Positions 396-54,861 of a stretch of 64,000 nt of DNA are shown one piece after another. The notes beneath the pieces were generated by a model that did no database searches, was not told where the DNA came from, and worked only from the letters and a program-made list of their open reading frames with translations. The DNA lies in assembly GCA_944323615.1 (NCBI GenBank), contig CALUTG010000001.1:1-64000 (forward strand), written 5' to 3'. Position 1 is the first letter of the stretch; each line of letters starts with the position of its first letter. A program made the position numbers and the translations under genes. The DNA comes from Candidatus Gastranaerophilales bacterium. Lineage in GTDB: Bacteria; Cyanobacteriota; Vampirovibrionia; Gastranaerophilales; Gastranaerophilaceae.

Positions 396-3300
396 ATGAC
401 GGATGGTTTAAATGAAGTAAAATTTTCGTTCAAGAAAGACCTTATGATTCAGGAAGGAGACAAGTATAAAGAAATCCTGAAAGATAAAAGGCTGCATGGA
501 TTAGGGCTTGCGCCGATATTTGAGGCAATTGATAAACTGGGTAAAAATGATAATAAAGTTACAGACGGAACAGAGCTGGAATATTTAGAAAAACTCTCCC
601 AAAAACTTGGTGATGAGATTGACGAAGGGAAAATAAAAGAGCTTGTAAAAGAATTTAAAGAATTAAAGAAAGCTTCCGGCGGAAACCCTGTTGCTGCGGT
701 TATAAAACTACTCAGCAATACAGAGCCGCCTGAAGTAAAAATAGAAGAAAAAACACCGGACGATGTTGTTCCGAAAGAAGTAGCAGGACCTGAAAGCACG
801 ATTAAAGACGGTAAGTTAAGAGAAGAGCCTGCAGGTGAAGAGACTCCTGCTACAGAAGAACATCTTTCTGATGACGGTAAAACTTCTCAACGAGCCTTCA
901 ATCAGGCAATTCAGACAACCGTAACAAAACTGGGAACAAAGAAAGATGAATTGACCGCTAAATATACAGAAACATATAAAGCTGTGAAAGGGGATAACTT
1001 ATATAAAATTGCGGTCAGGACACTGAAACAGGAAGGTATTGAAAAACCTAACTGGAAACAAATAAACGAACGAATTGCGGAAATTGCTCTGGTTAACAAC
1101 ATAAAAGATGTTAACCGTATACTGGTAGGACAGGAAATCAAACTCCCTAAAACCGGTGGAACCGAACCTCCTGCAGCCGGAACTGAACCTCCTGCCGGTG
1201 GAACTGAACCTCCTGCCGGCAGAACCGAACCTGCCGCATTTAATCCGGAAAGTAACGTCGCAAGAGATGCCGCCGGAGAAAGTTCTGTCAAAGTTACCGA
1301 CAACTTTGATCCGGAAGGCTGGACAGCGTCTGCCGTTGCAGGGGAAGCTGATATTACTAAGTATACCAAGAAGGAAGGTGAAGGCGAGTCTGCTGTAACA
1401 AAAGAAAAATATGCAGTTGAAGTCAGCGGTGTGACAATAGTTGCGGATACTCTTGAAGGTGTAAAAGCCTTGAAGCAAGAATTTGAAGCTAATCAGCCTG
1501 TCGGCAAACCTGAAGGCGAAGAATCACCGGAAGATGCGGCAAAAAGAAAGGATTTAAACCTCGATAAACTAAAAAGTCAAATGTCTCTGCTGCAGAATAC
1601 GGAAGATGTTATTCTGTACGTCATAGACCAGCTTAAGAATCCGGATATAACAGACAGCAGCTCTGATAAATTCAAAGCTCTTGTTCTCGATCTCCTAAAA
1701 ACGGGAGATCCGGAAGTGGTTGAAAAACTTATGCTGAAAGACTATGAGTTTGACAGCACATTATTTACAAAAGATGAAGTATCGTTCAAAACTGCAGCTG
1801 ATATGTACAAAGCCATCAGAGATAAAGAACTCCGCGGAGAAAGATTATCTGATACGGAACACTCATTGAAATATACTTTCCAAACATCAGACGATGAAAA
1901 CGGATTCAAAATCGAAGCTGACACTGAAAAAGGTGTTGTTGAAAAATATATGGGATTTGATGAAAACGGAGATGTTTATTACTACTATTCAAATGTACCG
2001 CCAGTTTTTGCTTATTCTCAAGAGCTGTTAGATGAATTTGCTGCCAAACTGAATTCTGCAGATACGGATGTAAAGAAATCCGCACTCTTTAAAGAGTATG
2101 TTAATACCCCTGATCCTGCTCTTCGTATGCACCTTGCATACAATACAGAAGATTACACAGCATCTAAAGAAGATATAGAAACTCTTATTAATAACTCTGA
2201 TCTGGAGACATTAAGTTGTCTTTATGTTAAAGACGAATACAAAGCAGAGCTTTATAAGAAGGCTGCTGAAAAGGCAAAAGAACTCTTCCTCGCAGACAAA
2301 GGTAACCTTGATAATGCAAGATATCTTTACGAGATATTCGACAGAATAGATGAATCCGGCTTGTCTGAGGCAGAAAAAAATGCAATAAAAACCGAGATAC
2401 TTGAATCCTACTTCACTGTCACAACAGCGGAAGACGGTACAAAAACATACAAATTTGAACCATCCAGACGCCCAACCTATGAAGAGATGGATGAATTAGC
2501 CGAAAATGCCACAGATGAAATGAAGAAAGCTCTTGTTGAATCAATCAAGCTCGAAGATATGGGTAAAAATGAATATACTGCGGGTATTGAAAAATGGGCA
2601 ACAACTGCTACAGTAGTACCACACTATGCGCAATTTATTGATGGTATGAGCGAAGAAGAAGTTATTAACTTTATTAAAAATAAAGTCACATACCCATCAG
2701 ACATACCTAATGACAAAATCCTTGAAAAATTCCATGATAATAAGGAAATAAGAGAGCTTCTTACCAGAGGGTATCATGATCTGGACGGTACCAAATTTGA
2801 CAGTATTATAAACGATGGAAATAGGATTTCACTTATTAAAGACTATATAACCGTTAATGAGGACGGAAGCTGGAGTTTGAAGAAGTCAGAACTACCTAAA
2901 TGGATATTCGTTGACGACCTTATATCTCTCTTGCCGTCTGAGTGTGACGAGGGCGAGGCGAGAAAAGTCTTTGATACTATATTAAAATCTCTCGGCAAAG
3001 AAGATTTAAATAGGTTAGTATCTCTTGGTGATCATCTAAAAGATAAGTCTATTATCCAAACAAGAGTTGGTGAATTAATAAAAGAAAATCCGGAAGATTC
3101 AGCATTTATAGAAAAAGTATTATCCGGAAAACATAACGAATACATACCGTTTGATACAATACTGGCTCTTGACGCGAGCAAATTAAGCCAAGATGTTAAA
3201 AATACAATGTTTGATAAATTTTTCAAAGAGAATGAATTTTCTCTCAAAACACTAAATTTGGCTATAAATAGAGGCTGGATAAAACCTCTCGGAAATAATA

Positions 3301-9263: not shown

Positions 9264-10693
9264 TTAATATAGACTACCTGACTTTAAGCAAATTTTTTGA
9301 TGAAAACATAGACTTCTTTATCGGCTCAAGACTCCAGAAAATTCAACAGCCGACAAGGAGAGATTTTATATTGTCTTTCCGCAATAACGGCGAGAGCAGA
9401 AAACTATACATCAATATTTCTCCGCAAACATATCATATCTGTTTTATGACAAAAGAAGGAGAGGAAAGACGGAATATAAAAATCCCGCAGCATCCCCCTA
9501 TGTTTTGTATGCTCTTAAGAAAATATCTTGAAGGTGCAAGGATTTCAGATGCTCTGACTGTAGAAAACGAAAGAATTTTAGAGCTGCATTTTGAAACTTA
9601 TGATGAGCTTTCTCAGCTGCGTTCACTTTGCCTGTGCGTTGAGCTTATGGGAAAACATTCAAATGTTATACTCTATGATAGAGAAACCTCTCAAATTATA
9701 GGCTGCGCCCACAATGTAGGAGCCGAAAAAAGCCGATATAGAGAACTGCAAGGCGGTCTCAAATACATTTACCCCCCGGGGGTAAATAATACAGGTAAAA
9801 TAGCAAGTTCTCTGTTTGAACTATTAGAAAAAGAATACCCGAATCTTTCATTAAACGATGCTCTTGATAATTATTATTCCAAAATTCAAGAGGGGGTAAA
9901 TGTAAAAAGCGAGAAATCTAAACTCCTTGCGATTGCGGATACAAAACTAAAAAAGGTTAAAAACTCATCCTCCAAAATAGAAACTCTGCTAAAGAAACGG
10001 GATAATACAGAAAAATACAGGCACTTTGGAGACCTTTTGACCGCAAATTTATATCTTAAAGCAGATTACAAACCTTCCGTGAAAATCCTTGATTATACAA
10101 CGGGCGAAAATGTAATCATTGAGCTTGACAGTACCAAAACAATGAATGAAAATGCTCAAAGGTATTACAAACTCTATAACAAATCAAAAACAACAAAAGA
10201 AAAATCCGCTCAGATTCTTGAAGGTCTGAATATTGAAAAAGAATATCTGGAAAACCTTATTTACAGCATTAATACAGCGGCAAGTATAAAAGAGCTTGAG
10301 GAGATAAAATCTGAACTTGGAGTTGATGAAACTCAAAAAAGCAAAAAGAATATCCCTCCGATTGTCTCTAAAATTGATATTGAGGGTTTTGAAGTTTATA
10401 TCGGCAAAAACAATAAACAAAATGATTATATAGTATCAAAACTTGCAAAAGACAATGATTACTGGTTTCATACCAGACTTTGCGCAGGTTCTCACGTGCT
10501 TTTAAAAGTTAAAGACAAAGAACCAGATGAGAAAGTTCTTTTTGAATGCTGCAAACTTGCTCGAGAGTATTCTTCCGCGACTCAGCCATCCAAAGTCGGC
10601 GTAATTTATACTAGAGCAAAATATCTGCGCAAGCCGCCTGCAGCACCTTTGGGCTACGTAACGTATAAAAATGAGAAAGAAGTTCTCGTATAG
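9260..10693 (+). CDS. rqcH: RqcH/NFACT family ribosome quality-control protein
   Basis: The bacterial RqcH (Rqc2 homologue; also annotated fibronectin-binding protein) binds stalled 50S subunits and recruits tRNA-Ala to add C-terminal Ala tails. The NFACT-N domain spans about 1-200 (MGKHSNVILYD near 130), followed by a coiled-coil and HhH-type middle region. The NFACT-R domain is at the C-terminus (DYWFHTRLCAGSHVLLKV, about 398-415). Length 477 is slightly short for the family. The start is TTG at 9260, overlapping the preceding stop codon (TTGA), with a GGGG stretch upstream; another start is possible. Two GGGGTAAAT motifs lie in frame as GVN (9777 and 9893), the first as part of a near-perfect palindrome. 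Confidence 0.9.
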   Translation: MINIDYLTLSKFFDENIDFFIGSRLQKIQQPTRRDFILSFRNNGESRKLYINISPQTYHICFMTKEGEERRNIKIPQHPPMFCMLLRKYLEGARISDALTVENERILELHFETYDELSQLRSLCLCVELMGKHSNVILYDRETSQIIGCAHNVGAEKSRYRELQGGLKYIYPPGVNNTGKIASSLFELLEKEYPNLSLNDALDNYYSKIQEGVNVKSEKSKLLAIADTKLKKVKNSSSKIETLLKKRDNTEKYRHFGDLLTANLYLKADYKPSVKILDYTTGENVIIELDSTKTMNENAQRYYKLYNKSKTTKEKSAQILEGLNIEKEYLENLIYSINTAASIKELEEIKSELGVDETQKSKKNIPPIVSKIDIEGFEVYIGKNNKQNDYIVSKLAKDNDYWFHTRLCAGSHVLLKVKDKEPDEKVLFECCKLAREYSSATQPSKVGVIYTRAKYLRKPPAAPLGYVTYKNEKEVLV

Positions 10694-10694
10694 A

Positions 10695-12200
10695 TTATGA
10701 GTAAACAAACGGCGGTCCGTTTTTAATCTCAAACAGAATATTATCAGCCATTATTTTTAGTTCTTCCGGAGATTTACCGTTTTCTTTCTGTTTCATAAAT
10801 TCATCACACAAAGGTTCAATAACGGATTCTTTTTTAGCTTTAAAGTTTCTGAGTTCAGTTGATACAAGTCTTCTCTGGAGGTTTAATTCAATATCAGCAG
10901 AATATTTTTTTACCTGAACTTCTTTAACAGCTTCCGCCAAAGCTTTACCGCCGTAAGCTAAGGCTGAAACCCCTGCAATTCCGAAAAATAAATTCTTAAA
11001 CTGAGGATTTTTAGGGTTCATAAGCCAGTCATAGAAGAATGATAAGTAATCGTTTACGTGCGAAAAATAAGTAATTTTATTCCTTCCTGATCCGCCAATA
11101 GCACTATTTACCTTTTCAGTTGCCTGATTCATATAAGACTTAAGCTGTTTTATAAAAGCTTCTTTTTCTTCCGGAGGTAAATTCATTTTGTTAACGTATT
11201 CTTCAATCTCGGCAGGCTTTGCGTAAATCGACTCAAGCATATTTTCCATAACATGTTTATAAGCCTCTTTTCCCGTTAAAATTTGTCCTTCGTGGTTTTG
11301 AACAGGGTTAATGCCCTTCCCTGCGTTAAATTCTTTTATCAAATTATCCAGACCGATTTTAGTATTATCTATTCCTTTTTTAATAAATTCTTCGCTTTTT
11401 CTTATATTCCTCATTGAAAAATAGCCTAAAGCCAGTATTCCGCCCAGAGTTGCAAGCCCGATTCCTATCAGAGGAATCATTAACCCTGAATCTTTTTTGC
11501 CCTTTTCCTCTTTACCCTTGTTCCCTCTAAAAGAAGTGTTATTCTCCAACTCTGATTTAAAAATTTTGGCCTTAGAAGAGAGCATACTCCTTATTATCTG
11601 GTTTTTGCCTGCAAAGGACTGGGTTTCAACCGCAATTAAATTTTCCTGCAAATTTTTCTGAATATCTGCCTCACGTCTTTTAACCCAAACTTCTTTAAAT
11701 CCGTCAATAAAGATTTTCCCCATAAAAGCCATCGCACCGAGAGTTATAACCCCTAAAGAAGCAAGTATTGTTTTTCTGTTAGGAGACTGAATCATACTGA
11801 ATATGCTCTGATGAATTTCATTATTAATACAGTGGTTTCTTGTTATCCCCGGAAGCAGATATTCCTTAGTAGATTCAAGCCGGTTCTTGGAAAAACTCTT
11901 AACCATATAAGTAAATCCGCCGAGAAGAGCCATAACACCTGTTGTTGCCGCGCAAATTGGAAGAAGTGCCGTATTCTTTTTCTCCTCCTTCTCATAAACT
12001 TTCTGAGGTAAATCTATCTGCGTATCTGAAATCACAAGAGTATCAATTGTTTCGTCCAAAGAAAGCAGTGGATCTTTCACAAAAGCGTTAACAATCTTGC
12101 CTTCCTTTATACTATTGCTATTTTTCTTTTGAGTGTCTGTCATATTGCGCTGGAGTCTTCTGGACTCGGCATCATTATCTATCTTCGGTACTGCGTTCAT
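10695..12200 (-). CDS. Membrane protein with internal duplication, 501 aa, cobalamin-riboswitch operon
   Basis: Unknown function. Two related halves are visible. In each, membrane segments are followed by an amphipathic stretch: GFKEVWVKRREADIQKNL (about 160-177) and AVKEVQVKKYSADIELNL (about 425-442). Hydrophobic segments lie at about 78-98, 137-157, 242-262 and 405-425. A central SFRG motif (about 221) resembles the SFKG motif of other membrane proteins in this window. The start codon overlaps the end of the upstream gene by 26 bp, which implies translational coupling and shared control by the riboswitch at 12905-13011. It ends one base from rqcH, tail to tail. It could act in cobalamin-linked transport or membrane organisation, but the sequence does not show this. 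Confidence 0.8.
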   Translation of the reverse strand: MNAVPKIDNDAESRRLQRNMTDTQKKNSNSIKEGKIVNAFVKDPLLSLDETIDTLVISDTQIDLPQKVYEKEEKKNTALLPICAATTGVMALLGGFTYMVKSFSKNRLESTKEYLLPGITRNHCINNEIHQSIFSMIQSPNRKTILASLGVITLGAMAFMGKIFIDGFKEVWVKRREADIQKNLQENLIAVETQSFAGKNQIIRSMLSSKAKIFKSELENNTSFRGNKGKEEKGKKDSGLMIPLIGIGLATLGGILALGYFSMRNIRKSEEFIKKGIDNTKIGLDNLIKEFNAGKGINPVQNHEGQILTGKEAYKHVMENMLESIYAKPAEIEEYVNKMNLPPEEKEAFIKQLKSYMNQATEKVNSAIGGSGRNKITYFSHVNDYLSFFYDWLMNPKNPQFKNLFFGIAGVSALAYGGKALAEAVKEVQVKKYSADIELNLQRRLVSTELRNFKAKKESVIEPLCDEFMKQKENGKSPEELKIMADNILFEIKNGPPFVYS

Positions 12201-12861
12201 CTTTTTTCTTCCGTCTTAATTTGTGTAGTATGGTTTTTAGGTTAAAAATTCGTTTATCGTCATCTATCTTAGTATCTTCGTCATCTGTATTATTTCGTTT
12301 AAAAATTTTAAATAAACCTTCAAGCTTAGATTTTAAAGCGCTTACAAGTTCTGAAACCTTCTTTTCGACAAAAGCCTTTGCTTCGCCAAAAATTGCATTG
12401 AGTTTATCTGTAATATCAACAAGTTTTTCCTTTAAAGCGACAATTTTTTCAGCAAAGTTTGCCACAGCAAGCGGAATGTTTCTGATAAAATTAACAACCG
12501 GCAGGGCTATATTTTTTATTACAAATGCAGCCGGTTTTAAAAGAATATTATTAGAAATCCTTTGAGCGAATTCCTGCATATTGGCAGCCAATTTAGCCAT
12601 AGTATTTTCAAAATTCTTAAGCGCTTCCAAATGTTTTTCAAGGTTCTGTTCGTGAGCTTCCAACCTCTGTTCCCTTGCCCTCATCATTGCACCAATCATT
12701 GCACACTGATGATAACTCATTTCGCCGGGCTTTTGAGGGCGTTCTCCGACCCTGCCGCCCCCTCCGCCCATTTTTGAGCAGACAGGACAAGCACCCGGAG
12801 CTAGTCCGTGCGGACATGTACCTGAATTTACTTTATTAACATTTTGGACCGGATTCGACAA
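12175..12861 (-). CDS. CPHG...CPVC motif membrane-associated protein under a cobalamin riboswitch, 228 aa
   Basis: Unknown function. The N-terminus holds a compact metal-binding-like motif, CPHGLAPGACPVC (residues 16-28), followed by a run of glycines. A coiled coil follows (about 60-95), then a hydrophobic region of one or two membrane-touching helices (about 105-140), an amphipathic helix and a strongly charged C-terminus. The start is TTG at 12861, placed 7 nt after AAGGG; no better ATG is available. It is the first gene behind the riboswitch, with about 45 nt between the aptamer and the start. Cysteine/histidine ligands beside a cobalamin switch suggest metal or corrinoid handling, but this is inference. 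Confidence 0.78.
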   Translation of the reverse strand: MSNPVQNVNKVNSGTCPHGLAPGACPVCSKMGGGGGRVGERPQKPGEMSYHQCAMIGAMMRAREQRLEAHEQNLEKHLEALKNFENTMAKLAANMQEFAQRISNNILLKPAAFVIKNIALPVVNFIRNIPLAVANFAEKIVALKEKLVDITDKLNAIFGEAKAFVEKKVSELVSALKSKLEGLFKIFKRNNTDDEDTKIDDDKRIFNLKTILHKLRRKKKDERSTEDR

Positions 12862-12904
12862 TCTTTAACCCTTTTTATACCCTCTGCCGCTCCAAAATCT
12901 CCAA

Positions 12905-13011
12905 AAACCAAACAATACTTTGACTCGAAGTATTGCTAAAATCAAGGTATTCCGGCTATAACGGCTGCGGCACAGTCACGGATTTTCACCGTTGTTTCCC
13001 TATATCAAGTT
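12905..13011 (-). ncRNA. Cobalamin riboswitch (compact type)
   Basis: On the minus strand the core matches the cobalamin aptamer consensus in order: AGGGAA (13001-12996), the P5 loop GGTGAAAATCC (12990-12980), GTGACTGTGCCGCAG for P6 and its junction, then the B12-box AGCCGGAATACC (12957-12946). A hairpin with arms CAATACTT/AAGTATTG (12935-12913) follows, as the P13 stem does in known aptamers. The peripheral stems between P6 and the B12 box are missing, as in compact class-II switches. It is followed by a T-rich stretch and then the Shine-Dalgarno of the first gene, so control may act on translation. Binding of B12 would be expected to repress the two downstream genes. Confidence 0.87.
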
Positions 13012-13017
13012 TACTTT

Positions 13018-13046
13018 ATCGTAAAATAACGGGAGGGAATAGTCAA
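13018..13046 (-). promoter_or_regulatory. Promoter of the riboswitch operon
   Basis: TTGACT (13046-13041), 17 bp, TACGAT (13023-13018) on the minus strand; the predicted +1 lies at the first bases of the aptamer. Confidence 0.7.
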
Positions 13047-13064
13047 TAAAATTTTATTATTTCT

Positions 13065-13167
13065 CCCTCTCCTTACAGGAGAGGGGAGGGGTGAGGTGTC
13101 AATGGCTCGTGAATCGTGAATTGGAAATTATTACCCTCTCCTTGAGGAGAGGGGAGGGTGAGGTGTC
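13065..13167 (+). repeat. Two tandem hairpin-plus-tail repeats, copies 9 and 10
   Basis: Copies at 13065-13100 and 13134-13167, both with stem CCCTCTCC/GGAGAGGG and tail GGGTGAGGTGTCAATGG. The following AATGGCTCGTGAAT is also repeated, so this is a tandem duplication of about 68 bp. Confidence 0.85.
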
Positions 13168-13244
13168 AATGGCTCGTGAATTGTGAATGGTGAAGTGTGG
13201 TTATAAAAGAAATGTACCCAAAGAAAAAGAAAGCACGCACTGCT

Positions 13245-13266
13245 GCATTTTTCGACAGAAAAATGC
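13245..13266. repeat. Perfect 9-bp inverted repeat
   Basis: GCATTTTTC and GAAAAATGC around a GACA loop, in gene-free DNA between repeat copies. No T-run or neighbouring gene explains it. Confidence 0.5.
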
Positions 13267-13326
13267 CTGATATTCTCCCGTACCTCTTTACACTACTATC
13301 CATGACAAATTCATCATTGCTAATCT

Positions 13327-13419
13327 TCCTCCCTTGTGAGGGAGGATTGAGGTGGGTGTTGATTATATAGAATTATAAAGACTAATACCCATCCCAACCT
13401 TCCCTAACCAGGGAAGGAG
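13327..13419. repeat. Inverted pair of diverged hairpin repeats, copies 11 and 12
   Basis: Copy 11 (13327-13360, plus) has stem TCCTCCC/GGGAGGA and tail TTGAGGTGGGTGTT. Copy 12 (13387-13419, minus) has tail ACCCATCCCAACC and stem CTTCCCT/AGGGAAG. They are a variant subfamily of the main repeat. Apart from these, 13168-13570 shows no credible gene. Confidence 0.7.
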
Positions 13420-13570
13420 ATCTTTAACACAATTCATTTACCTCTGGCTGCTAAAGGAATACAGTCGCATTTTTGGGTGCATAACCTTCGATTATTTATT
13501 GTCTCAACATTTTTTCAGGATGACATAATAATATTACTCTAGACCCCACGCCCGCTTCTTTTGTCTCCCT

Positions 13571-13770: not shown

Positions 13771-15207
13771 TTAGCCGGAGAATGTTTTGTATGAAGCTTC
13801 AATGTTATCATCAATTACCTTAGAAACGGCTTCAATTTCTGTTGTTATCTGAGTTCTTTCGTTATCCAATCTCTGGAGTTTTAATTCAAGGTTTCTATCT
13901 TCCTTTTGGATAATTTCAGTTTTAGCATTGATTTCCTGTTGAGCTTTATCATACTCATACTGTGCGTATTCGTATTGTGCATAAGCATCCTGATATGCTA
14001 ATTCATCTGTAACAGTAGCTGCTTCTAATGGTATTTCGGTATAACCTGTAATATTACCCTGAGAATCTCTTACCGGCTGGGACATAGAAGTAATTCTTCC
14101 TGATGTATCAAAGGTTAATTCGCATCCTTCAATAGATTCAGTGAATGTATATGTACCATTTGCCATATAGTCATATACCACAGCTCTGTCATCGGAGCCT
14201 TGAACATCTTGAGCAAGAGCGAAGTGCGGTACTACAGCCCCGCTATCGGAAGTTGTAAAGTAAACCATAAAATCATTTGTATCATAGTTGTCGCCAAAGG
14301 TATTGAGAATAGCTTGCTCATAGCCGCCCCAACCTAGATCTTGATATTGAGGGAGATTTTTTGCTTCTTCAAATGTATAGGCAGTATTACCTGCGATAGT
14401 GTAAGAATTCGGATTAGGGTTAGGAATTTCATCTGAACCCTGTCCTCTGACAAAATATTCTAAACCTGATTTATACTGATAGCCGCCTTCAACTTTGGTA
14501 AAATCATCTACTGTTGCAGCTCTCCAGTTTCCAGAAGAGGTTTTTACAAATAGGTTTTCAATAGAAGATATTGTGTTGTAAGCCGGTTCGGATACTTGAT
14601 TTACAGGCACATTAACATCTTGAGTAAATTCTTCTTCCGGATTGTTCAATCTATAGTAATCTTTGCCCTCTTCATATGATGTTGCTTTTTCATAGCGGCC
14701 ATTTTCAAGGGTGTAGTACTCGCCGTCACCAAAGTTATCCGCATTGACATCCGGATTATGGATTAGGAAGCGGTCACCCTCTTCATAATTAGATTTTGCT
14801 TCATAGGCATCAATTGGCTGCATTGTTGTAGTTTCGCTTGAATCAAGCAAATTCCCTGTTAGATTTGCGGAAGGAGATGTTACTATTGCAGAACTATACC
14901 TTTGTGAAAGTGCATCTCCCACTTGAGTAGTTTGTTTTTCGACAATATAAGAGTTCCCATCGGCGGATGGTTTAATATTACCTAAAGTAAAATTAGTTGC
15001 ACCGTCAGAACCTGAGTATTGTACTGTTGTAAAATCACTTGTTGATGGAGGTGTCGGAACCTGCATAGCTAATAAGCTGTTATACAAAGCTGTACTTTGT
15101 TGAGAAAGAACTGTTCTTTCCTGGTTGATCTGCTGTCCTTGATACTCCAAATTTGACTGTCTTGCAATTAACCCTAAATACCTTGCTTGTGATGCTGACA
15201 TACCCAT
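13771..15207 (-). CDS. Protein with coiled-coil ends and variable centre, 478 aa
   Basis: Unknown function. The N-terminus (MSASQARYLGLIARQSN, residues 3-19, then a Gln-rich helix to about 50) and the C-terminus (about 400-475, rich in Gln, Glu, Tyr) are helical coiled coils. They enclose a Tyr/Asn/Asp-rich, beta-type middle region. This layout is that of flagellin-like and hook-associated proteins, whose two ends pair, but I cannot place it in a flagellin family. There is no signal peptide. The start has AAGGAG nine bases upstream; an ATG two codons later is possible. Similar N-terminal motifs seem to be common in Gastranaerophilales (recollection, not checked). The gene is monocistronic. 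Confidence 0.75.
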   Translation of the reverse strand: MGMSASQARYLGLIARQSNLEYQGQQINQERTVLSQQSTALYNSLLAMQVPTPPSTSDFTTVQYSGSDGATNFTLGNIKPSADGNSYIVEKQTTQVGDALSQRYSSAIVTSPSANLTGNLLDSSETTTMQPIDAYEAKSNYEEGDRFLIHNPDVNADNFGDGEYYTLENGRYEKATSYEEGKDYYRLNNPEEEFTQDVNVPVNQVSEPAYNTISSIENLFVKTSSGNWRAATVDDFTKVEGGYQYKSGLEYFVRGQGSDEIPNPNPNSYTIAGNTAYTFEEAKNLPQYQDLGWGGYEQAILNTFGDNYDTNDFMVYFTTSDSGAVVPHFALAQDVQGSDDRAVVYDYMANGTYTFTESIEGCELTFDTSGRITSMSQPVRDSQGNITGYTEIPLEAATVTDELAYQDAYAQYEYAQYEYDKAQQEINAKTEIIQKEDRNLELKLQRLDNERTQITTEIEAVSKVIDDNIEASYKTFSG

Positions 15208-30416: not shown

Positions 30417-33400
30417 ATGACGATTTCATTCAGCGGATTAGCATCAGGTTTAGATACATCATCTTGGGTTGAATCGCTTGTAGCATTGAAGCAGGCGAAG
30501 GTCACCGAGCTTGAAGACGAAAAAGATTTAATTACAACGACCCGTGAGGCAGTTGCTAATATTAAATCATTTTTTACGTCGTTTCGTTCTGTTTTGGAAA
30601 AGGTTACGGATGCTAAGTTTAATATAGGCTCTATGGATATCTTTGCGCAGAACCTCGCTACATCATCCGATGTGGATATCTTATCTGCTATTGCTACTGC
30701 AGATGCAAAAGAAGCTACTTATGATATAGAAGTAGATAATCTTGCTACTGCGACACAGGCTATAAGTGGTTATAAATATACTACAACAATTGTTTCCACA
30801 ACGACTGCGACAATTGATTCAAAATTAGGAAATCTTGGTGTTAAGGCCGGCAATATAGGAATTGATATTAATGGTATCCAGCAGAATCTGTATATAAGTG
30901 AGAATGATACTATTAAGACATTTATTAATAAATTAAGTGAATTAGGGGTTAGTGCAAGTTTTAATAATGATACTGGAGTTTTTAATATAAATATTGGAAT
31001 TGACGATATTAATGATATTGATAATACTGGTATAATTCAAGCCTTGCATCTTGAAGGCGTAAATGAAGGATATCAGAGCGGAAAACTTCAAATCACCGAT
31101 ACTGAAACGACTTATGAAGCAGCAAATGAACAAACTCTAATGTCTGATTTAGGGGTAAAAGCTGGCACGGTGACAATAGAGGCAAATGATGCTATTTATA
31201 ACGTAAAAATAGATAATACAACAACAATTGGTAAATTTATTCAGGATTTACTGAATAAAAATATTAATGCCTCCATAGATGAAAATGGTGTATTTAAGAT
31301 TGAAGATGCCGTGATAACAAATGACGGTACAACAGACTTGATTGATACTTTTGGTCTTACACAAGATGCCAGCAAAAACACACAGCAGAGCGGAGATTTA
31401 GTATACAATACAGTTGTTACGCAGGTTACTGAAGCTACACTTGATACATTGCTTACTGATATATCTGATGAAAAGCTTACAAACGGTGCAACCGTTATTG
31501 TCAAGAATTCTAATAATGAAACATCCGTAATAACTTTAAATTCAACCAGTACGCTTGGAGATTTGTTTGACGGATTCAAGGCAGCAGGATTAAATGCTGC
31601 AATTAATGACGATGGAACCGTTATTATATCTGGCGGCGAAATAACCGGCGGTACATATGATGTTGCTTCGGCATTTGGCTTGGTTTCAAACCCTCTTACA
31701 GGAAATGTTATAGGAGATTCGTTGAAGGAGACCATAACCCATAAAGTTGTTGCAACCGAGGATACAAATCTTATTGCGGATTTAGGGGTAAAAGCCGGTA
31801 CTGTAACAGTAGAAGCAAATGATACGACATATACGATAAAAGTAGATGACACGACAACCCTCGGGTCATTTATAGAAGATTTGCAAGATAATAATATTAC
31901 GGCATCACTGGATGAAAACGGTGTATTCAAGATTGAAAATGCTGTAATAACGAATGATGGTACAACGGACTTAATAGATGCTCTAGGAATGACCGAGGAT
32001 GTTAGTACAAATATACAGCAGAGCGGTGATTTAACATATGATACGGTTGTTACGCAGGTAACAGAAGCGACATTGGACAGCCTTCTCAAGGACTTGTCAG
32101 ATGAAAGTATTACAAACGGCTCAACTGTTGTTGTTAAGAATTCTAATAATGAAACATCCACAATAACTTTAAATTCAACCAGTACACTTGGAGATTTGTT
32201 TGATGGATTTAAAGCTGCAGGCATGAATGCTTCTTTAAGTGATAATGGAACAGTAACCATATCCGGCGGGGCGATTGTAGGCGGATCTTATGATGTAACA
32301 GCTGCATTCGGATTAACTTCAGGAATTTTATCAGGAAATGTTATAGGTGATTCTTTGCAAGAGACCATAACCCATAAAGTTGTTGCAACCGAGGATACAA
32401 ATCTTGTTGCGGATTTGGGAGTAAAAGCGGGTACTGTAACAGTAGAGGCGAATGACACAACTTATACAATAAAAATAGATAATACAACAACCCTCGGGAC
32501 GTTCATAAAAGACTTGCAGGGTAAAAATATTACTGCATCATTGGATGATAATGGTGTATTCAAGATTGAAAATGCTGTAATAACAAATGACGGTACAACG
32601 GACTTAATAGATGCCCTTGGAATGACAGAGGATGTTAGTACAAATATACAGCAGAGTGGTGATTTAACTTATGATACGGTAGTTACCCAGATAACTGAGG
32701 CTACCCTTGACAGCCTGCTCAAGAATTTATCTGATGAAAGTATTTCAAATGGTTCAACAGTTATTGTTAAGAACTCCAATAATGAAACTTCTACAATAAA
32801 ATTAACGGCAACCAGTACGCTTGGAGATTTGTTTGACGGCTTTAAAGCTGCAGGCATGAATGCATTTTTAAACGATAATGGGACAGTAACTATATCCGGC
32901 GGGGTAATTGTCGGCGGATCTTATGATGTAACAGCTGCATTTGGATTAACTTCAGGTATTTTGTCAGGAAATGTTATAGGTGACAGTTTGCAGGAAACTA
33001 TTACTAATGAAATGGTTGCGACTATTGACACCCGTCTTGTAGAAGACTTTGGAGTAAAAGCAGGTTATTTCAAGGTTACTAATAGTAATGGGGATGTGTA
33101 TTATGAAAAAATATACAGTGGTATGACTATCGGGGATCTGATTAACGATTACAGGTCAATGGGAATAACTGCAAATCTTGATACTAGTACCGGTGTTTTA
33201 ACTGTATATGGCGGAACATTTGATGAATTAACAGATACGGAAGTTCAAAATCTTGTTAGTCAGGGTAAAATCTCAGAAAGCAATCAAAGCCTTAGAAAGG
33301 GTACAGATTTATTAACTAAATTATATGGTTCAGATCTTTCAGATAATATGTCTGCTGACTCTGCCTATTCCAAGTCTGATGCATTAAAATATCAAATATC

Positions 33401-36400
33401 TGAAACTGTTAAAGCATCTGGAACTTCTACACTTGGCTCCTTAGGACTTTCTGGAAGCAATAAGGCTGTTGTATTTTCTGTATACAATGCCGGCACAGTT
33501 ACTGTTACGGTTTCTTCAACAACAACAATAGACAGCTTTGTTAGTGCATTGAAAAATAAAGGTGTTCAGGCATCGTTTGATTCAGCAACATCAAGACTTA
33601 TGATCACTGATGCTACTCTTACGTCATCTTCTTCATCTAATGCTAATAAAGAAATTAATGATATATTCGGATTTACATCAGAATTAACCGGCGCATACGC
33701 ATCATCAAATCCTGTATATGGTATGCAGACAATAATAGAAGCTGTTACAACAGGAACTACGCTTGAAGACCTTGGAATAAAGAGCAAGCAGATACTTACT
33801 CTTACTGTTGACGGTACTGTATCTACAAAAACGTTTAATACAACAGATACACTCGGGACTGTCATTAGCTGGGTAAATTCAACTACAGATGCTACTGCAA
33901 AATTAGAGAATGGTGTTTTCAGTGTTTCTGGCGGGATAATAAGTAATAGTACATTTGAAAATGCTTTAGGTTTATCGGATTCATCATCAAGTGTAACCGG
34001 TGTAGCTTTAATTGCACCGACAACAAAGCTCATTGCTGCAACGGAAAGCTCTACTCTTGGAGATATTGTTAAGGCTCTGGGAAATGAGAAAGATATTGTT
34101 ATTGCGGGTTATACATTGAGTTCTGCCAGCTTTAGTTTGACATTCCAAGAGGACACAACTGTTAGTTCCTTTATTTCAACTCTGAAAGGTAAAGGTATAA
34201 CCGCTTCTTTTGCATCCGGGAAACTTTCAATTACGGGTGATATTGAGTTGAGCGGGTCTCTGGTAGATGCATTGGGCTTAAAAGCTAAATATAAAACAAT
34301 ATCTTCTTCGACCAGTTATGCAAATTTGACGGACAAAGTCTCCGAATGGATATCTCCTGATAATTATCAGATTACTTTTAAATCATCTAGAACAGGGGAT
34401 ACTCTTTCTGCAACGACCCTTTCTTCAGATACAACATTTGCAGATCTTGTATCTATTTTTAGTGCAGAGGGTATTGATGTGACACTGGATCAAGGACAGT
34501 TAACATTTGATAATTTAACCGGTGTTTATGCTGAAGGCGCTGTTATGGAAGCTCTTGGTGTACAAACTCTGAGTAAGGCTGCTACAATTGCAGAGAAGGT
34601 TACTTCTACTACAATAATGTATAGAACTGTTGTGGCTACTAAATCGACAACTTTGTCTGATCTGGGAATCACCAAGGTTGATAATTCCTCACTTGAAATT
34701 CGGTACACTCCTAATGTAGCTTCATATTTACCATTGGCAACTAAAGGGATAACTACCTCCTCTACATTAGGTGATCTGTTTGATGTATTAGAAGAATACG
34801 GCTTTGAAGGTTCTATCTCCGGTGGAAAGATAATCATAAAAAATACAGAATATAATAATGCTTATCTAGAAGGATCTCTTTTTAATTCTCTTAACTTCTC
34901 AGCCTATACAAAACAAGTTGTAAGTAATCCGATGGGTATGTATTCTAATAGTGTGGTAAGGGAGATTCTTAAGCCGGGTGCTACTCTTCCATCAACACCA
35001 TCTAGACCGAGCTATTCTCCGGCATCAGCCAGTTTCTCCTCAGGTAATCAGTCGGCAAATACTACAATAAGTACAAATCCTACAATTCCGGGTATTGGTG
35101 GCGGCGGAACAACACTCCCGGGAGGAGGAACTGTAACTATTGTTCCTCCTGTAAATACTATTCCTGGTGGTGGAACAACTCCAGGTGGTGGCTCTGTCGT
35201 CACTTTGGGGTCTACTGCAACAGCCAGTTCAACGGTGGCAGATCTGGGCTTAGATTCTATTACTGTCAATATTCAAAGCACGGGAATAATTAATGCTTTT
35301 TCTAAAATAACTCTTGCAGCCGATGATACACTCGGGGATCTTGCTGATAAACTGGCAAATTATGATATTTCATTTACAATAAAAGATGGTATTATTGAGA
35401 TGTGGGAGCTTGGTTCTCATCGTCTTGTTGGATTTGATGCGGCCTCTACGGAAGCTTTACATCTGGTTGCTATAGGGGCGGCTGTGCCTAAGACGATATA
35501 CTCCACATCAACAAGTGCTTCAGCAACTTTAGTCCGTAAATATACGGAGGATGATGTCATAATTGCGAGCACTTCAGCTTCCGCTATGGGATTTGTCTTA
35601 GAAAATTCTATAACCGGTGAGAGAGTTATTATAAATCAAGATAGTGGCGATACTCTGGGTGATATAATTGACAAATTAAATGAGTATGGCATGGGTGCAT
35701 CATATAGCAACGGCTATTTAACCATTAATAATGATTCGGATTATTATATAGCAGAAGTCGCGGAAAAATTAGCTAATATTTTAAAAATTCCAACGTCAGG
35801 TCTGTCCACCACCGGAGAGATTTCTTATATGTCACAACCGACAAAAACTTTATCAAAAACAAATTCTGGATATGAAGAAATATCAGGCTATGAAAGTTCA
35901 TCACTCGTAACATATGCAGATGGTCCTATCACCAGAAATACAAAGCTATCAGAACTGGGTATTAATAATAGTATAATTAGTGTACCTGAAGGCCAGAACC
36001 TCTCCCGAACCCTGAATATTACTTCTGATTTTACAATCGGTGAATTCCTTGATTTATTAAGCAGCAACGGTTTTACTACAAGTTTGGATTCTAACGGTGT
36101 AATATCAATTTCTTCTAATTCCGGTTCGGTACTTAATACTGTATCAGGTAATTTGTTGGATAAGCTGGGTCTTACTGATTGGAATATCGGCAGCCAGACA
36201 GGAACTGCCATAATGCAGACAATATTTTCAACAACAACAGTTTCAATGTCAACAGCTCTATCAGAGCTCGTTGATTCATCAGGTAAAAATCTTGGAATAA
36301 CTTCCGGACAAATCTATGTTTATACTAATGGCAAGTCTACTCCTGATTTAATAGAAATTAACAGCAATGATACATTGCAGTCATTAGCCAGCACTTTGGC

Positions 36401-39400
36401 TGCGTATGGGATCTCTCTTACTATAGGATCAGGCGGTAAGCTTAATTTGAGCGGAAATACAGGAAGCTACCTCTCAACCAGCGGCCTCTCCAGCAGTGCA
36501 GCTTCTAATATTTTGACTAAAATAGGTGCTACTTCCTGGAACTATAGATATGATATGTCTTCTGTTTCTATGACAGAAGAAGGGGCCTCACAGGTTGCTA
36601 TAACGGCAGATACCAAGTTGCTCGATTTGCGTAATTCAAGCGGTAATTCTCTGGGAATTACGGCAGGCAGTTTTTATATTTATGAAAACGGGGTTAGAAT
36701 TTCTGAAACTATCACTGCCGATACTACCGTTGGAGATTTCCTTTCAATGTTAAATTCACACGGTATTACTGCATCTTTGGGTGCTGACGGTTCTATTTCT
36801 CTAAGCGGTAAGAATAATTCATATATTGATTCTCAATCAGGTGGCAGCAATATTGTTGATAAATTATTCCCTGATTGGAAATATGTTAATACATATGTTT
36901 CTGACAGTATAAGGTATAAAGACGAAGTAGTACAAAATATTACAAGTGATACTAGACTAGCAGATATTAATGGTATTACTTATCAAGCAGGCTTTATAAC
37001 TGTTAATAATAATGGTGTTAAAACAAATGTTTCTCTCTCTGCTGATGAAACAATCGGCTCTTTGATTAATAAGCTTAATTCCTATGGATTTAGTGCAAGT
37101 CTGGATCCTAATGGAAGTTTGAATATCAGGGCTAATGGCAACCTTACTCTGGAAAATTATACAGGCTCAGGGCCTGCTTCAAATGCATTGTCTGCACTCG
37201 GTATAGCTCCGTCAGAGTGGGTATTCTCAAATATCTATGATAGTGAGAACTTGGATAAAGTTGAAACCTCTACTGTAGAAACAGCCGTAACCCGTGATAC
37301 TAAGCTTTCAGAGCTTGGCATAACTGCCGGAGAATACTATATTTATAATAATGGAACAAGGCATACTGCGATGGTATCATCAGATGATACAGTAGAAACA
37401 TTTATGCAAACTCTGCAGCAGTTTGGTATTCAGGCAAGCTTAAATATTGAAGGCGGTAAATCAACTCTGACAATTGTCGGCAGCGGAAATTCTTATGTGG
37501 CAAAATCAAATTCAGTATCAAGCGCATCAAACATTGTTGATGTATTACTCCCTTACTTAGAAAATAATAATAAATATACATCAGAAGGTTTGATAACAGA
37601 GGAAGAAACTTCGGAATTTATAACCGGAGATACTAGACTAGCAGATATTAATGGTATTAATTACCAAGCCGGATTTATAACTATTAACAATAATGGTGTT
37701 AAAACAAATGTTTCTCTCTCCGCAGAAGAAACAATTGATTCCTTTATAAATAAATTGAATTCTTATGGGTTTAGCGCAAGCATAGATCCTAACGGAAGCT
37801 TGAATATCAGGGCTAACAGTAACCTTACTCTTGAAAATTATACTGGCTCCGGGCCTGCTTCAAATGCATTGTCTGCACTCGGTATAGCTCCGTCAGAGTG
37901 GGTATTCTCAAATATCTATGATAGTGTGGATTTGGATAAAGTTGAAACCTCAACTGTAAAAACCGCTGTCACACGTGATACTAAGCTTTCAGAACTTGGT
38001 GTGACCTCAGGTGAATACTATATTTACAACAATGGTGTAAGATATACTGCGATGGTATCATCAGATGATACGGTCGAAACATTTATGCAAACTCTACAGC
38101 AGTTTGGTATTCAGGCAAGCTTAAATATTGAAGGCGGTAAATCAACTCTGACAATTGTTGGTAACGGAAATTCTTATGTGGCAAAATCAAATTCAGTATC
38201 AAGCGCATCAAACATTGTTGATGTATTACTCCCTTACTTAGAAAATAATAATAAATATACATCAGAAGGTTTGATAACAGAGGAAGAAACTTCGGAATTT
38301 ATAACCGGAGATACTAGACTAGCAGATATTAATGGTATTACTTATCAAGCAGGCTTTATAACTGTTAATAATAATGGTGTTAAAACAAATGTTTCTCTCT
38401 CCGCAGATGAGACAATAGATTCATTTATAAATAAATTGAGTTCATATGGCTTTAAGGCAAGCCTTGATCAAACAGGCAGTCTGGTTATCAGAGCAGAGGG
38501 TGCTCTTACTCTGGAAAATTACACAGGCTCCGGAACTGCTTCAAATGCATTGGAAGAACTTGGCATTGATCCTTCAGAATGGGTAATTTCAAATACATAT
38601 GATAGTGAGGATCTTGATATTGTTGAAATTTCTACAGTGGAAGCAGCCGTCACACGTGATACTAAGCTTTCAGAACTTGGTATAACTGCCGGTGAATACT
38701 ATATCTACAACAATGGTGTTAAATATACAGCTATGATCTCTTCCGATGATACAATTGATTCATTTATTCAAACACTTCAACAGTTTGGTATTCAGGCAAG
38801 TTTAAATATTGAAGATGATAAGTCAACACTGTCAATTATAGGGAATGGAAATTCATACGTAGCCAGATCAAACTCTGTAGCGAATGCATCTAATATTGTG
38901 GATATATTGTTCCCAGGCGGTATGGAGTCGACTTATAATTACAGCGGCTCTCTTACAAAAACTATTACAACAACTACAACAGAACTTATCAATAGAGATA
39001 CTTTGCTTAGCGACCTTGACAAGCCTTGGGGAAATTCAACTCTTAAATCAGAAGGAAAACTTGTCTTTAATGTTAACGATGAAGTTAGAAGTATTGAAAT
39101 TACATCTGACGAAACAGTAGGATCTCTTATTGATAAATTGAGCGGTATTGGTATTGCTGCTTCGGTATCAAACGGTGTATTTACTATACAAAGCGGATTT
39201 GATGAAATAAGTATAAATACGATTTCATCTACGTCTAATCTGATAACAAACCTTGAATTAACTTTCCATGACGATTTAGGCGGTTACGCAGCAAGTTCCG
39301 ACACGGTTATGCAGACTACTACAACCTATGAAGAAAGAACCTTGTCAATTTCAAACTATGCGGATGATTCTACCAAGTTAAGTATGATGAATATATCCTC

Positions 39401-40730
39401 CGGTTCTTTAACAATGTACAAAAATGGGCAAAAGGCAACAATTCAGATAGATTCAGAAGAAACTTTTGCAGAGTTTAGAGCCCGTGTAGCTTCGGCACTT
39501 CAAGGGGTTGATGTTAAAATTGAAGACGGTATTTTGAAATTTACAGCAACGGACGGTGCAGATCTTCAAATAGGTGCTACAACAGATACAAGCAATATTA
39601 CAGCTGTAACCGGACTTATAAAAAATGAAGACGGCTCAATTACCAGTGCAAGAGAATTGTATAAGGTTAATGGTACTTCTCGGATTATGGATTCAGGCTT
39701 ATTCAGGCTCGGTGATGTTACGGAAGGTACTTTTACTATTGGTGATGCTGTATTTACAATTGATAGCAATACTACAATTAACAGTTTGATTTCACAAATT
39801 AATTCAAGTGAAGATTCAAATGCAAATGCTTATTGGGATAGTATTGATGGTGAACTCGTTCTAACTTCACGTGCAACAGGCTCATCTCTTATTAATATTG
39901 AAGCAGGTACAAGTAATTTTACGGATATAATGGGGTATACAGTTACCGAAACAGCTGCAGACGGTTCTACCGTAAAAAGACTTATGGTTAATAATCAAAC
40001 CCTCGGGGCTAATGCAAGCTTTACTATAAACGGTACAAGACATACTTCTGCATCTAATACCATCTCAAGCGATATCTCAAGAATTGAAGGTGTTACTATT
40101 AATCTTAAAAAGATTACAGAGGAAGGTCCTGTTACTCTTACAATTGAAAAAGACAAAGAAGCTGTCGCTGATGCTATTCAAGAAGTAGTAGATGCTTATA
40201 ATGAGTTGTTGACAAATGTTAATGATGCAATTTCTATAGAAGGTGATTTGCATGGCGAAACAACTCTTAAACTCATAAGAACCCAGTTAAGAAGTTTAAT
40301 GACAAGTTCTTTATCCGGCAATGGCACATATAGAAATCTTGATGCTATAGGAATAACTTCAGAAGCTGCAAGCGGAACTAATATTTCTACAGAAAATGTT
40401 GATATGCTTTATTTTGACAGGGAAAAATTCATTGAAGCTTATGGTGAACATCCTGAAGAGCTGAAATCTTTCCTTGTCGGAACTGAAGAAAATCCGGGCG
40501 TCCTTTCCAAGGTTGAAGAACTCATTGAGTCAACATTAGCCTCTGTGACAGGTTATTTTGACTCTACGGATTCTTCTTTTGCATCCCAAATTCAGCGTAT
40601 TGATGAAAAAATATCAAGACAAACCAGAGCGGTTGAACGTTATAGAACTAGATTAGAAGCTAAGTTCCAATCTATGGACTTATTGATTGCCAATATGCAG
40701 AATCAATATAGCTCGTTCCTTAGCTTCTAA
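30417..40730 (+). CDS. fliD: Giant flagellar hook-associated protein 2 (filament cap), 3437 aa
   Basis: FliD caps the flagellar filament and helps flagellin fold at its tip. The N-terminal FliD domain is clear (ISFSGLASGLDTSSWVESL, residues 3-21, to about 110). The C-terminal FliD domain spans about 3130-3437 (SRIEGVTINLKK; VVDAYNELLTNVNDAI; final coiled coil). Usual FliD proteins have 400-900 residues. Here the middle is made of 27 units by eye of 85-115 residues, each with a T(L/I)GxxIxxLxxxGIxAS core, like expanded flagellin-hook IN motifs. Two blocks are recent tandem copies (633 bp and 681 bp periods). A Pro/Gly-rich linker lies near 1520-1600. No signal peptide, as expected for the flagellar export route. 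AGGATA stands before the ATG. No other flagellar gene is in the window; an adhesin derived from FliD is an alternative. Confidence 0.85.
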   Translation: MTISFSGLASGLDTSSWVESLVALKQAKVTELEDEKDLITTTREAVANIKSFFTSFRSVLEKVTDAKFNIGSMDIFAQNLATSSDVDILSAIATADAKEATYDIEVDNLATATQAISGYKYTTTIVSTTTATIDSKLGNLGVKAGNIGIDINGIQQNLYISENDTIKTFINKLSELGVSASFNNDTGVFNINIGIDDINDIDNTGIIQALHLEGVNEGYQSGKLQITDTETTYEAANEQTLMSDLGVKAGTVTIEANDAIYNVKIDNTTTIGKFIQDLLNKNINASIDENGVFKIEDAVITNDGTTDLIDTFGLTQDASKNTQQSGDLVYNTVVTQVTEATLDTLLTDISDEKLTNGATVIVKNSNNETSVITLNSTSTLGDLFDGFKAAGLNAAINDDGTVIISGGEITGGTYDVASAFGLVSNPLTGNVIGDSLKETITHKVVATEDTNLIADLGVKAGTVTVEANDTTYTIKVDDTTTLGSFIEDLQDNNITASLDENGVFKIENAVITNDGTTDLIDALGMTEDVSTNIQQSGDLTYDTVVTQVTEATLDSLLKDLSDESITNGSTVVVKNSNNETSTITLNSTSTLGDLFDGFKAAGMNASLSDNGTVTISGGAIVGGSYDVTAAFGLTSGILSGNVIGDSLQETITHKVVATEDTNLVADLGVKAGTVTVEANDTTYTIKIDNTTTLGTFIKDLQGKNITASLDDNGVFKIENAVITNDGTTDLIDALGMTEDVSTNIQQSGDLTYDTVVTQITEATLDSLLKNLSDESISNGSTVIVKNSNNETSTIKLTATSTLGDLFDGFKAAGMNAFLNDNGTVTISGGVIVGGSYDVTAAFGLTSGILSGNVIGDSLQETITNEMVATIDTRLVEDFGVKAGYFKVTNSNGDVYYEKIYSGMTIGDLINDYRSMGITANLDTSTGVLTVYGGTFDELTDTEVQNLVSQGKISESNQSLRKGTDLLTKLYGSDLSDNMSADSAYSKSDALKYQISETVKASGTSTLGSLGLSGSNKAVVFSVYNAGTVTVTVSSTTTIDSFVSALKNKGVQASFDSATSRLMITDATLTSSSSSNANKEINDIFGFTSELTGAYASSNPVYGMQTIIEAVTTGTTLEDLGIKSKQILTLTVDGTVSTKTFNTTDTLGTVISWVNSTTDATAKLENGVFSVSGGIISNSTFENALGLSDSSSSVTGVALIAPTTKLIAATESSTLGDIVKALGNEKDIVIAGYTLSSASFSLTFQEDTTVSSFISTLKGKGITASFASGKLSITGDIELSGSLVDALGLKAKYKTISSSTSYANLTDKVSEWISPDNYQITFKSSRTGDTLSATTLSSDTTFADLVSIFSAEGIDVTLDQGQLTFDNLTGVYAEGAVMEALGVQTLSKAATIAEKVTSTTIMYRTVVATKSTTLSDLGITKVDNSSLEIRYTPNVASYLPLATKGITTSSTLGDLFDVLEEYGFEGSISGGKIIIKNTEYNNAYLEGSLFNSLNFSAYTKQVVSNPMGMYSNSVVREILKPGATLPSTPSRPSYSPASASFSSGNQSANTTISTNPTIPGIGGGGTTLPGGGTVTIVPPVNTIPGGGTTPGGGSVVTLGSTATASSTVADLGLDSITVNIQSTGIINAFSKITLAADDTLGDLADKLANYDISFTIKDGIIEMWELGSHRLVGFDAASTEALHLVAIGAAVPKTIYSTSTSASATLVRKYTEDDVIIASTSASAMGFVLENSITGERVIINQDSGDTLGDIIDKLNEYGMGASYSNGYLTINNDSDYYIAEVAEKLANILKIPTSGLSTTGEISYMSQPTKTLSKTNSGYEEISGYESSSLVTYADGPITRNTKLSELGINNSIISVPEGQNLSRTLNITSDFTIGEFLDLLSSNGFTTSLDSNGVISISSNSGSVLNTVSGNLLDKLGLTDWNIGSQTGTAIMQTIFSTTTVSMSTALSELVDSSGKNLGITSGQIYVYTNGKSTPDLIEINSNDTLQSLASTLAAYGISLTIGSGGKLNLSGNTGSYLSTSGLSSSAASNILTKIGATSWNYRYDMSSVSMTEEGASQVAITADTKLLDLRNSSGNSLGITAGSFYIYENGVRISETITADTTVGDFLSMLNSHGITASLGADGSISLSGKNNSYIDSQSGGSNIVDKLFPDWKYVNTYVSDSIRYKDEVVQNITSDTRLADINGITYQAGFITVNNNGVKTNVSLSADETIGSLINKLNSYGFSASLDPNGSLNIRANGNLTLENYTGSGPASNALSALGIAPSEWVFSNIYDSENLDKVETSTVETAVTRDTKLSELGITAGEYYIYNNGTRHTAMVSSDDTVETFMQTLQQFGIQASLNIEGGKSTLTIVGSGNSYVAKSNSVSSASNIVDVLLPYLENNNKYTSEGLITEEETSEFITGDTRLADINGINYQAGFITINNNGVKTNVSLSAEETIDSFINKLNSYGFSASIDPNGSLNIRANSNLTLENYTGSGPASNALSALGIAPSEWVFSNIYDSVDLDKVETSTVKTAVTRDTKLSELGVTSGEYYIYNNGVRYTAMVSSDDTVETFMQTLQQFGIQASLNIEGGKSTLTIVGNGNSYVAKSNSVSSASNIVDVLLPYLENNNKYTSEGLITEEETSEFITGDTRLADINGITYQAGFITVNNNGVKTNVSLSADETIDSFINKLSSYGFKASLDQTGSLVIRAEGALTLENYTGSGTASNALEELGIDPSEWVISNTYDSEDLDIVEISTVEAAVTRDTKLSELGITAGEYYIYNNGVKYTAMISSDDTIDSFIQTLQQFGIQASLNIEDDKSTLSIIGNGNSYVARSNSVANASNIVDILFPGGMESTYNYSGSLTKTITTTTTELINRDTLLSDLDKPWGNSTLKSEGKLVFNVNDEVRSIEITSDETVGSLIDKLSGIGIAASVSNGVFTIQSGFDEISINTISSTSNLITNLELTFHDDLGGYAASSDTVMQTTTTYEERTLSISNYADDSTKLSMMNISSGSLTMYKNGQKATIQIDSEETFAEFRARVASALQGVDVKIEDGILKFTATDGADLQIGATTDTSNITAVTGLIKNEDGSITSARELYKVNGTSRIMDSGLFRLGDVTEGTFTIGDAVFTIDSNTTINSLISQINSSEDSNANAYWDSIDGELVLTSRATGSSLINIEAGTSNFTDIMGYTVTETAADGSTVKRLMVNNQTLGANASFTINGTRHTSASNTISSDISRIEGVTINLKKITEEGPVTLTIEKDKEAVADAIQEVVDAYNELLTNVNDAISIEGDLHGETTLKLIRTQLRSLMTSSLSGNGTYRNLDAIGITSEAASGTNISTENVDMLYFDREKFIEAYGEHPEELKSFLVGTEENPGVLSKVEELIESTLASVTGYFDSTDSSFASQIQRIDEKISRQTRAVERYRTRLEAKFQSMDLLIANMQNQYSSFLSF
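31146..33044 (+). repeat. Three tandem 633-bp repeats inside fliD
   Basis: The landmark for Asp-Leu-Gly-Val-Lys-Ala-Gly recurs at 31146, 31779, 32412 and, diverged, at 33045, always 633 bp (211 codons) apart. Each unit contains two IN-like domains. The second and third are almost identical at protein level, indicating recent duplication. Confidence 0.9.
36948..38990 (+). repeat. Three tandem 681-bp repeats inside fliD
   Basis: GATACTAGACTAGCAGATAT starts at 36948, 37629 and 38310, exactly 681 bp (227 codons) apart. Units one and two share long identical stretches; the third is more diverged in its second half. Confidence 0.9.
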
Positions 40731-54832: not shown

Positions 54833-54861
54833 ATTGTAAGGCATGCCTAACATTTTGTCAA
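54833..54861 (-). promoter_or_regulatory. Promoter with DtxR-type operator in the spacer
   Basis: TTGACA (54861-54856), 17 bp, TACAAT (54838-54833) on the minus strand: near-consensus. The spacer holds the palindrome TTAGGCATGCCTTA (54850-54837), one base from a perfect TTAGGCATGCCTAA. A metal-loaded regulator bound there would block RNA polymerase. The -35 box overlaps the stop codon of the upstream membrane-protein gene. Confidence 0.85.

Follow-up and report, generated by a model that had tools for sequence, protein, structure and literature searches.

Described targets of cobalamin riboswitches are genes for B12 synthesis, for B12 or cobalt transport and for B12-independent isozymes (PMC3766115). 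In many prokaryotes the membrane proteins for B12 uptake are not known, and one transporter that has been characterized, BtuM, is a solitary S-component-like protein that occurs almost only in organisms without ECF modules and ligates cobalt through a cysteine (PMC6072759). No paper joining riboswitches with Gastranaerophilales was found in the literature, and two that mention Melainabacteria together with riboswitches concern other matters.

The window (the whole stretch of 64,000 nucleotides of Candidatus Gastranaerophilales DNA that was analyzed) contains a cobalamin riboswitch directly upstream of two genes, here called P1 and P2, for which the original prediction had proposed a possibly new corrinoid-related membrane system. 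As a riboswitch it is a typical representative of its class; what stands out is its target, which matches no known family.

The aptamer and its linkage to P1 and P2

12937..13018, minus strand: cobalamin (AdoCbl-II type) riboswitch aptamer, assigned by RF01689 (46.2 bits) and covariation

The RF01689 (AdoCbl-II) covariance model matched positions 13018 to 12937 over the full model (1-81) with E = 5.9e-8 and a score above the gathering score of 36.5 bits, and all the core motifs quoted in the original prediction were present. RF00174 reached 23.9 bits at this site, which is below its cut-off. The window genome has one AdoCbl-II site, and no second cobalamin switch was detected in it with RF00174 or the AdoCbl-II model. 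Among 36 aptamers from relatives, 90.5% of helix cells were paired, the covariation score was 0.407 (0.120 in shuffles; reached by 0 of 500) and double-sided changes occurred at 7 of the 14 pairs. The window aptamer is a genuine cobalamin riboswitch, far beyond chance. Binding of a corrinoid and a resulting change in expression would be expected of its leader as properties of the switch class.

The aptamer was found to be kept before orthologous pairs. Switches (E ≤ 0.001) were detected in 55 of the 58 genomes of the genus, one in each, and P1, the CPHG gene, lay behind the switch on the same strand in all 30 of the genus genomes inspected. At 79 named related loci, which come from Candidatus Gastranaerophilales of rumen and gut metagenomes, a strict aptamer core lay no more than 480 nt upstream of P1 in 76 cases, with 79 strict cores in total over 1.24 Mb of both strands. 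Across the family, P2 was present in 92 of 97 sampled genomes; among the matches listed, 88 of 90 genomes had the switch on the P2 strand and 661-881 nt ahead of that gene, and in the other two the P2 contig had no switch among those matches. Switch and P2 tended to be present or absent together (91/1/1/4, Fisher p = 7e-6). Of the two exceptions, G177 does carry a core ahead of P1-P2-P3, visible in the sequence but not picked up by the filtered search, and G226 has kept the switch, P1 and a third gene, P3, and lost P2. Outside the family, the first gene behind an AdoCbl-II match in family f4 (L075) is related to P2 in its C-terminal portion (E = 1.8e-5), and in family f10 (L182) an RF00174 switch (35.9 bits) is followed at a distance of 15 nt by a borderline P2-like gene (E = 9.8e-4). 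As judged from these comparisons, the target is conserved family-wide, with distant traces in two more families of the class. The switch and its conserved linkage to the gene pair are regarded as virtually certain.

Leader elements and predicted switching

13018..13046, minus strand: sigma-70-like promoter TTGACT-N17-TACGAT, 9/12 matches
12913..12935, minus strand: P13-like hairpin CAATACTT-CGAGTCA-AAGTATTG, which probably forms a kissing loop with the aptamer
12885..12890, minus strand: anti-aptamer element GCGGCA, complement of aptamer UGCCGC
12869..12873, minus strand: ribosome-binding site AAGGG, recognized by sequence, 7 nt before the TTG start

The promoter that had been proposed for the switch is present; as evidence by itself it is weak, with one promoter-like site found where 0.6 would be expected by chance in a region of this size. 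Leaders of relatives have a TA-rich, -10-like element at the corresponding place. The intergenic region upstream of the switch (13050-13450) contains repeated CCCTCTCC..GAGGAGAGGGG..GTGAATTGTGAA units.

In the AdoCbl-II class, the loop of a downstream hairpin is expected to pair with a loop of the aptamer. A hairpin with a 7-nt loop, most commonly CGAGUCA, followed the aptamer in 78 leaders, nearly all of the genus, and in 67 of the 78 its last three loop bases were complementary (3/3) to the UGR loop of the aptamer. Changes in the triplet were compensatory (UGA/UCA to UGG/CCA or CUA). Such pairing is what the known kissing hairpin (L13) of the AdoCbl-II class would predict.

Most leaders of the genus also carry, nearer the start codon, a GYUGCGGCA element complementary over 6-10 nt to the aptamer core, and this element tracks changes in the core (AGC/GCU to AAC/GUU, UGCC/GGCA to UACC/GGUA). 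In the window the complement is 6 nt long (shuffle fraction 0.05), and it is paired to the core in the predicted minimum free energy structure of the leader. A stable hairpin encloses the equivalent GGAAG ribosome-binding site of many relatives; that of the window leader is weak, and there the evidence for repression consists of the anti-aptamer element and the predicted fold. The missing strong hairpin is what one might cite for an aptamer that arose by chance or is a decayed relic; such an origin is almost certainly wrong, refuted as it is by conservation in 55/58 genus genomes, together with the covariation and a covariance score above threshold.

Under corrinoid scarcity, the GYUGCGGCA element would be base-paired to the core of the aptamer, and ribosomes would have access to their binding site. 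With corrinoid bound, the aptamer and the kissing hairpin would form, the anti-aptamer element would be freed and the ribosome-binding site buried, reducing translation of P1 and P2, so that the module would be produced under B12 limitation. Because many leaders of the genus combine a hairpin that buries the ribosome-binding site with an anti-aptamer element that competes with the core, B12 very probably represses the module, at the level of translation. An activating corrinoid switch is on record (PMC10653944), and the sign proposed here is a prediction from these elements.

The P1, P2 and P3 proteins

12175..12861, minus strand: P1, 228 aa, CPHG-x5-CPxC, TTG start (open reading frame and orthologue alignment)
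10695..12200, minus strand: P2, 501 aa, membrane protein, two-fold internal repeat, C-terminal PPFVYS (open reading frame and 25 orthologues)

The open reading frames run as originally described, from 12861 to 12175 for P1 and from 12200 to 10695 for P2, both on the minus strand and sharing 26 bp. Their description as proteins without a recognizable family also held: neither P1 nor P2 had a match above noise in Pfam, NCBIfam, PHROGs or PADLOC, the PADLOC, PHROGs and NCBIfam hits being dismissed as coiled-helix noise, and P2 matched no PDB chain by sequence. FecCD, TonB-receptor, ATPase and binding-protein domains were found in neither protein (Pfam and NCBIfam), nor did either show homology to B12-binding proteins or to B12-independent isozymes such as MetE, ribonucleotide reductases of class I or III and enzymes of the methylcitrate type.

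At its N-terminus P1 carries a CPHG-x5-CPxC cluster; a Gly-rich linker connects this to the rest of the protein, which is helical and amphipathic. C16, P17, H18, G19, C25, P26, C28 and C53 are invariant across 53 orthologues. Searched against the PDB by sequence, its profile gave weak helical hits only, with no S-component-like (BtuM-type) chain, and its likeness is confined to amphipathic helical proteins (apolipoprotein, 0.0019). The AlphaFold2 model is all helix and weak (pLDDT 66, pTM 0.36). A comparison of P1 with a small Gly-rich protein of family f7 found no homology.

P2 has two to three predicted membrane segments. Its halves align with each other at E = 2.9e-10 and a probability of 96.8, a value that did not exceed 0.5 in 20 column-shuffled controls. 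The AlphaFold2 model is nearly all long helix and is likewise weak (pLDDT 65, pTM 0.43), and a fold search with it gave no match below E = 0.09. Several membrane proteins of the window, P2 among them, have a low-complexity loop that contains a short S-F-(K/R)-G motif, possibly a recurrent signal of the group:

11489-11515, 54858-56384 and 60495-61709: regions with the S-F-(K/R)-G motif

Elsewhere in the window, a 3437-aa repeat protein (30417-40730, plus strand) has an N-terminus that resembles a flagellar cap protein (FliD-like) by eye only.

In most other genera (L060, L063, L068, L077, L178, L180, L183) P2 is followed by P3, a protein of ~140-190 aa that ends in ..DPNEEIGGAIL.. and has no family match; it is missing downstream of P2 in the window's genus. 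Other genera (L060, L068, L092, L093) have, immediately behind P1-P2-P3, paralogues of a MGMSASQARYLGLIARQ.. protein that the window encodes at 13771-15207 (minus strand).

The invariant CPHG..CPxC motif and C53 of P1, the few membrane segments of P2 and the use of a cysteine as axial cobalt ligand in BtuM (PMC6072759) could be explained if P1 and P2 store, chaperone or modify corrinoids inside the cell, import proceeding through an unrecognized carrier such as BtuM. This is quite improbable: the P1 motif could equally be a zinc knuckle, and neither protein has a cobalamin-binding signature.

Other switch targets in relatives

All other switches inspected in the family precede nrdDG except one, in G114, where btuB-btuCDF stands behind its own switch alongside P1-P2. 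Targets such as nrdDG and btuB-btuCDF make up the set expected of a B12-shortage regulon. In genomes of family f3, switches precede class I nrdAB and methylcitrate-type genes. One f3 locus (L073) has two near-identical, facing cobalamin switches (2337-2429, plus strand, and 10276-10368, minus strand), which precede two gene clusters, one of the acyl-CoA dehydrogenase type and one resembling the methylcitrate cycle.

These targets bear on whether P1-P2 is a B12-sparing module that, as nrdDG does, covers for a process that fails without B12. Among the other switch targets in the family the B12-independent reductase NrdDG is the most frequent, and those of f3 include class I nrdAB and methylcitrate-type genes, but P1 and P2 contain no enzyme domain and few conserved residues that look catalytic, and are membrane and amphipathic in character. 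To our knowledge, there is no B12-dependent process that two such proteins could replace, and a sparing role is considered unlikely.

In families f7 and f5, the AdoCbl-II switch precedes a different protein of ~500-580 aa (L065:1249-2952, L066:1114-2856, L070:1653-3170) with six or so internal repeats of the form R..xH..(D/E)S plus a conserved glycine. It has no match in Pfam or NCBIfam, and P2 was compared with the f7 protein and found not to be homologous.

B12 use and importers

Importers were surveyed as FecCD and EcfT in 46 genomes. Among these, NrdJ scored above the cut-off in 23 family and order members, and CobA was present in exactly the same 23. FecCD (BtuC) was missing from 22 of these 23, of which 20 have P2 and G226 has P1; overall, FecCD was found neither in G000 nor in 43 other genomes of the 46, and EcfT in none. 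One genome (G231) has NrdJ and CobA with P2 and the switch undetected, possibly through a gap in the metagenome-assembled genome. In three NrdJ-positive genomes examined, no cob cluster lay beside CobA, which stands alone; NrdJ-positive genomes (L271-L273) mostly have two stand-alone CobA paralogues, near clpP/tuf and rpsB/tsf. No PduO-type adenosyltransferase was detected in any genome tested.

The window's genus differs from the NrdJ-positive members. NrdJ and CobA were absent from the 12 genus genomes tested, and MetH-like matches occurred in 4 of 38. The genus's clearest candidate corrinoid user is a B12-binding radical-SAM protein encoded in the window at 43218-44615, whose best match is HpnJ (223 bits, under the cut-off of the HpnJ model); proteins of this type were also seen where the module is missing. 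PF02310 (B12-binding) did not discriminate as an indicator of B12 use, since genomes with and without the module alike had radical-SAM matches. QueG was likewise rejected as an explanation, being present in families f7, f5 and f4 and not found in the family. In the window's genus the module is thus kept where the need for B12 appears small, and its ligand there may be something other than AdoCbl.

Retention without NrdJ or CobA would also suit a membrane-shaping or envelope module, P1-P2-P3, for which B12 serves merely as an environmental cue, as would the likeness of P1 to amphipathic helical proteins (the apolipoprotein match and the weak helical PDB hits) and the long helices of the P2 model. 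The weak hits of P1 are, however, of a kind that any helical protein may give, the remaining targets identified in the family are all genes of B12 use or B12 uptake, and the switch and P2 are lost together. An envelope role is considered unlikely, though, like a B12-sparing role, it is a serious rival.

Proposed role of the module

Most AdoCbl-dependent members have neither a FecCD nor an ECF importer, and the module is a conserved target of a B12 switch; on these grounds, corrinoid acquisition or membrane-associated corrinoid handling is proposed as a tentative role, somewhat below an even chance. In this scheme P2 would supply the membrane component, with P1 as its partner at the membrane surface, where the invariant Cys/His cluster of P1 might bind a metal or possibly the cobalt of a corrinoid. 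The suggestion of a possibly new corrinoid-related membrane system draws support from the orphan pair, the family-wide switch, the two to three membrane segments of P2 and the 22 of 23 genomes without BtuC and none with ECF; contact of P1 or P2 with corrinoids, including transport or binding, is something we only infer.

Several findings weaken the acquisition reading. The window's own genus, without NrdJ or CobA and with few MetH-like matches, has kept both module and switch, and G231 has NrdJ and CobA without a detected P2 or switch. Two to three membrane segments are few for a permease, the operon encodes no ATPase, and neither protein is homologous to any B12-binding protein. G114, which carries btuCDF as well as the module, weakens the idea of a simple replacement of one by the other.

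Taken as a whole, a B12-repressed P1-P2(-P3) module for corrinoid acquisition or handling is judged to fall not far short of an even chance. Doubtful, in its more specific form, is the proposal that P1-P2(-P3) is a new Gastranaerophilales uptake system, unrelated to BtuCDF, ECF-CbrT and BtuM and made under B12 shortage through a translational riboswitch, with other membrane proteins behind the same switch in related orders.

Here a gene pair that lacks a functional annotation and is kept by a whole family of gut bacteria is marked by an RNA element whose kind of ligand is known, which gives a concrete candidate of two or three genes for B12 acquisition, amenable to tests in E. coli. In other orders of the class this switch stands before a second repeat protein, unrelated to the first, which suggests that several corrinoid genes may be marked in this way. 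Should the link be to something other than uptake, the pair would represent a new category of cobalamin-switch target.

Comparison with known systems

The btuB/btuCDF operons likewise place a corrinoid switch before membrane-protein genes, and G114 has exactly such an operon, but P1 and P2 differ in having no TonB-receptor, FecCD, ATPase or binding-protein domain. ECF-CbrT represents another class of B12 importer; EcfT occurs in 0 of 46 genomes, and P1 and P2 are unrelated to it. Although nrdDG and other B12-independent isozymes share this switch class in the family, P1 and P2 belong to no recognized enzyme family. The M. tuberculosis ppe2 switch (PMC11260477) also senses B12 before a gene of uncertain function, in another organism, with another switch architecture and an unrelated protein family. 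BtuM differs in that P2 has 501 aa and two to three membrane segments, is paired with P1 and resembles no PDB chain by sequence; the likeness to BtuM lies in the missing ECF modules and in the invariant cysteines of P1.
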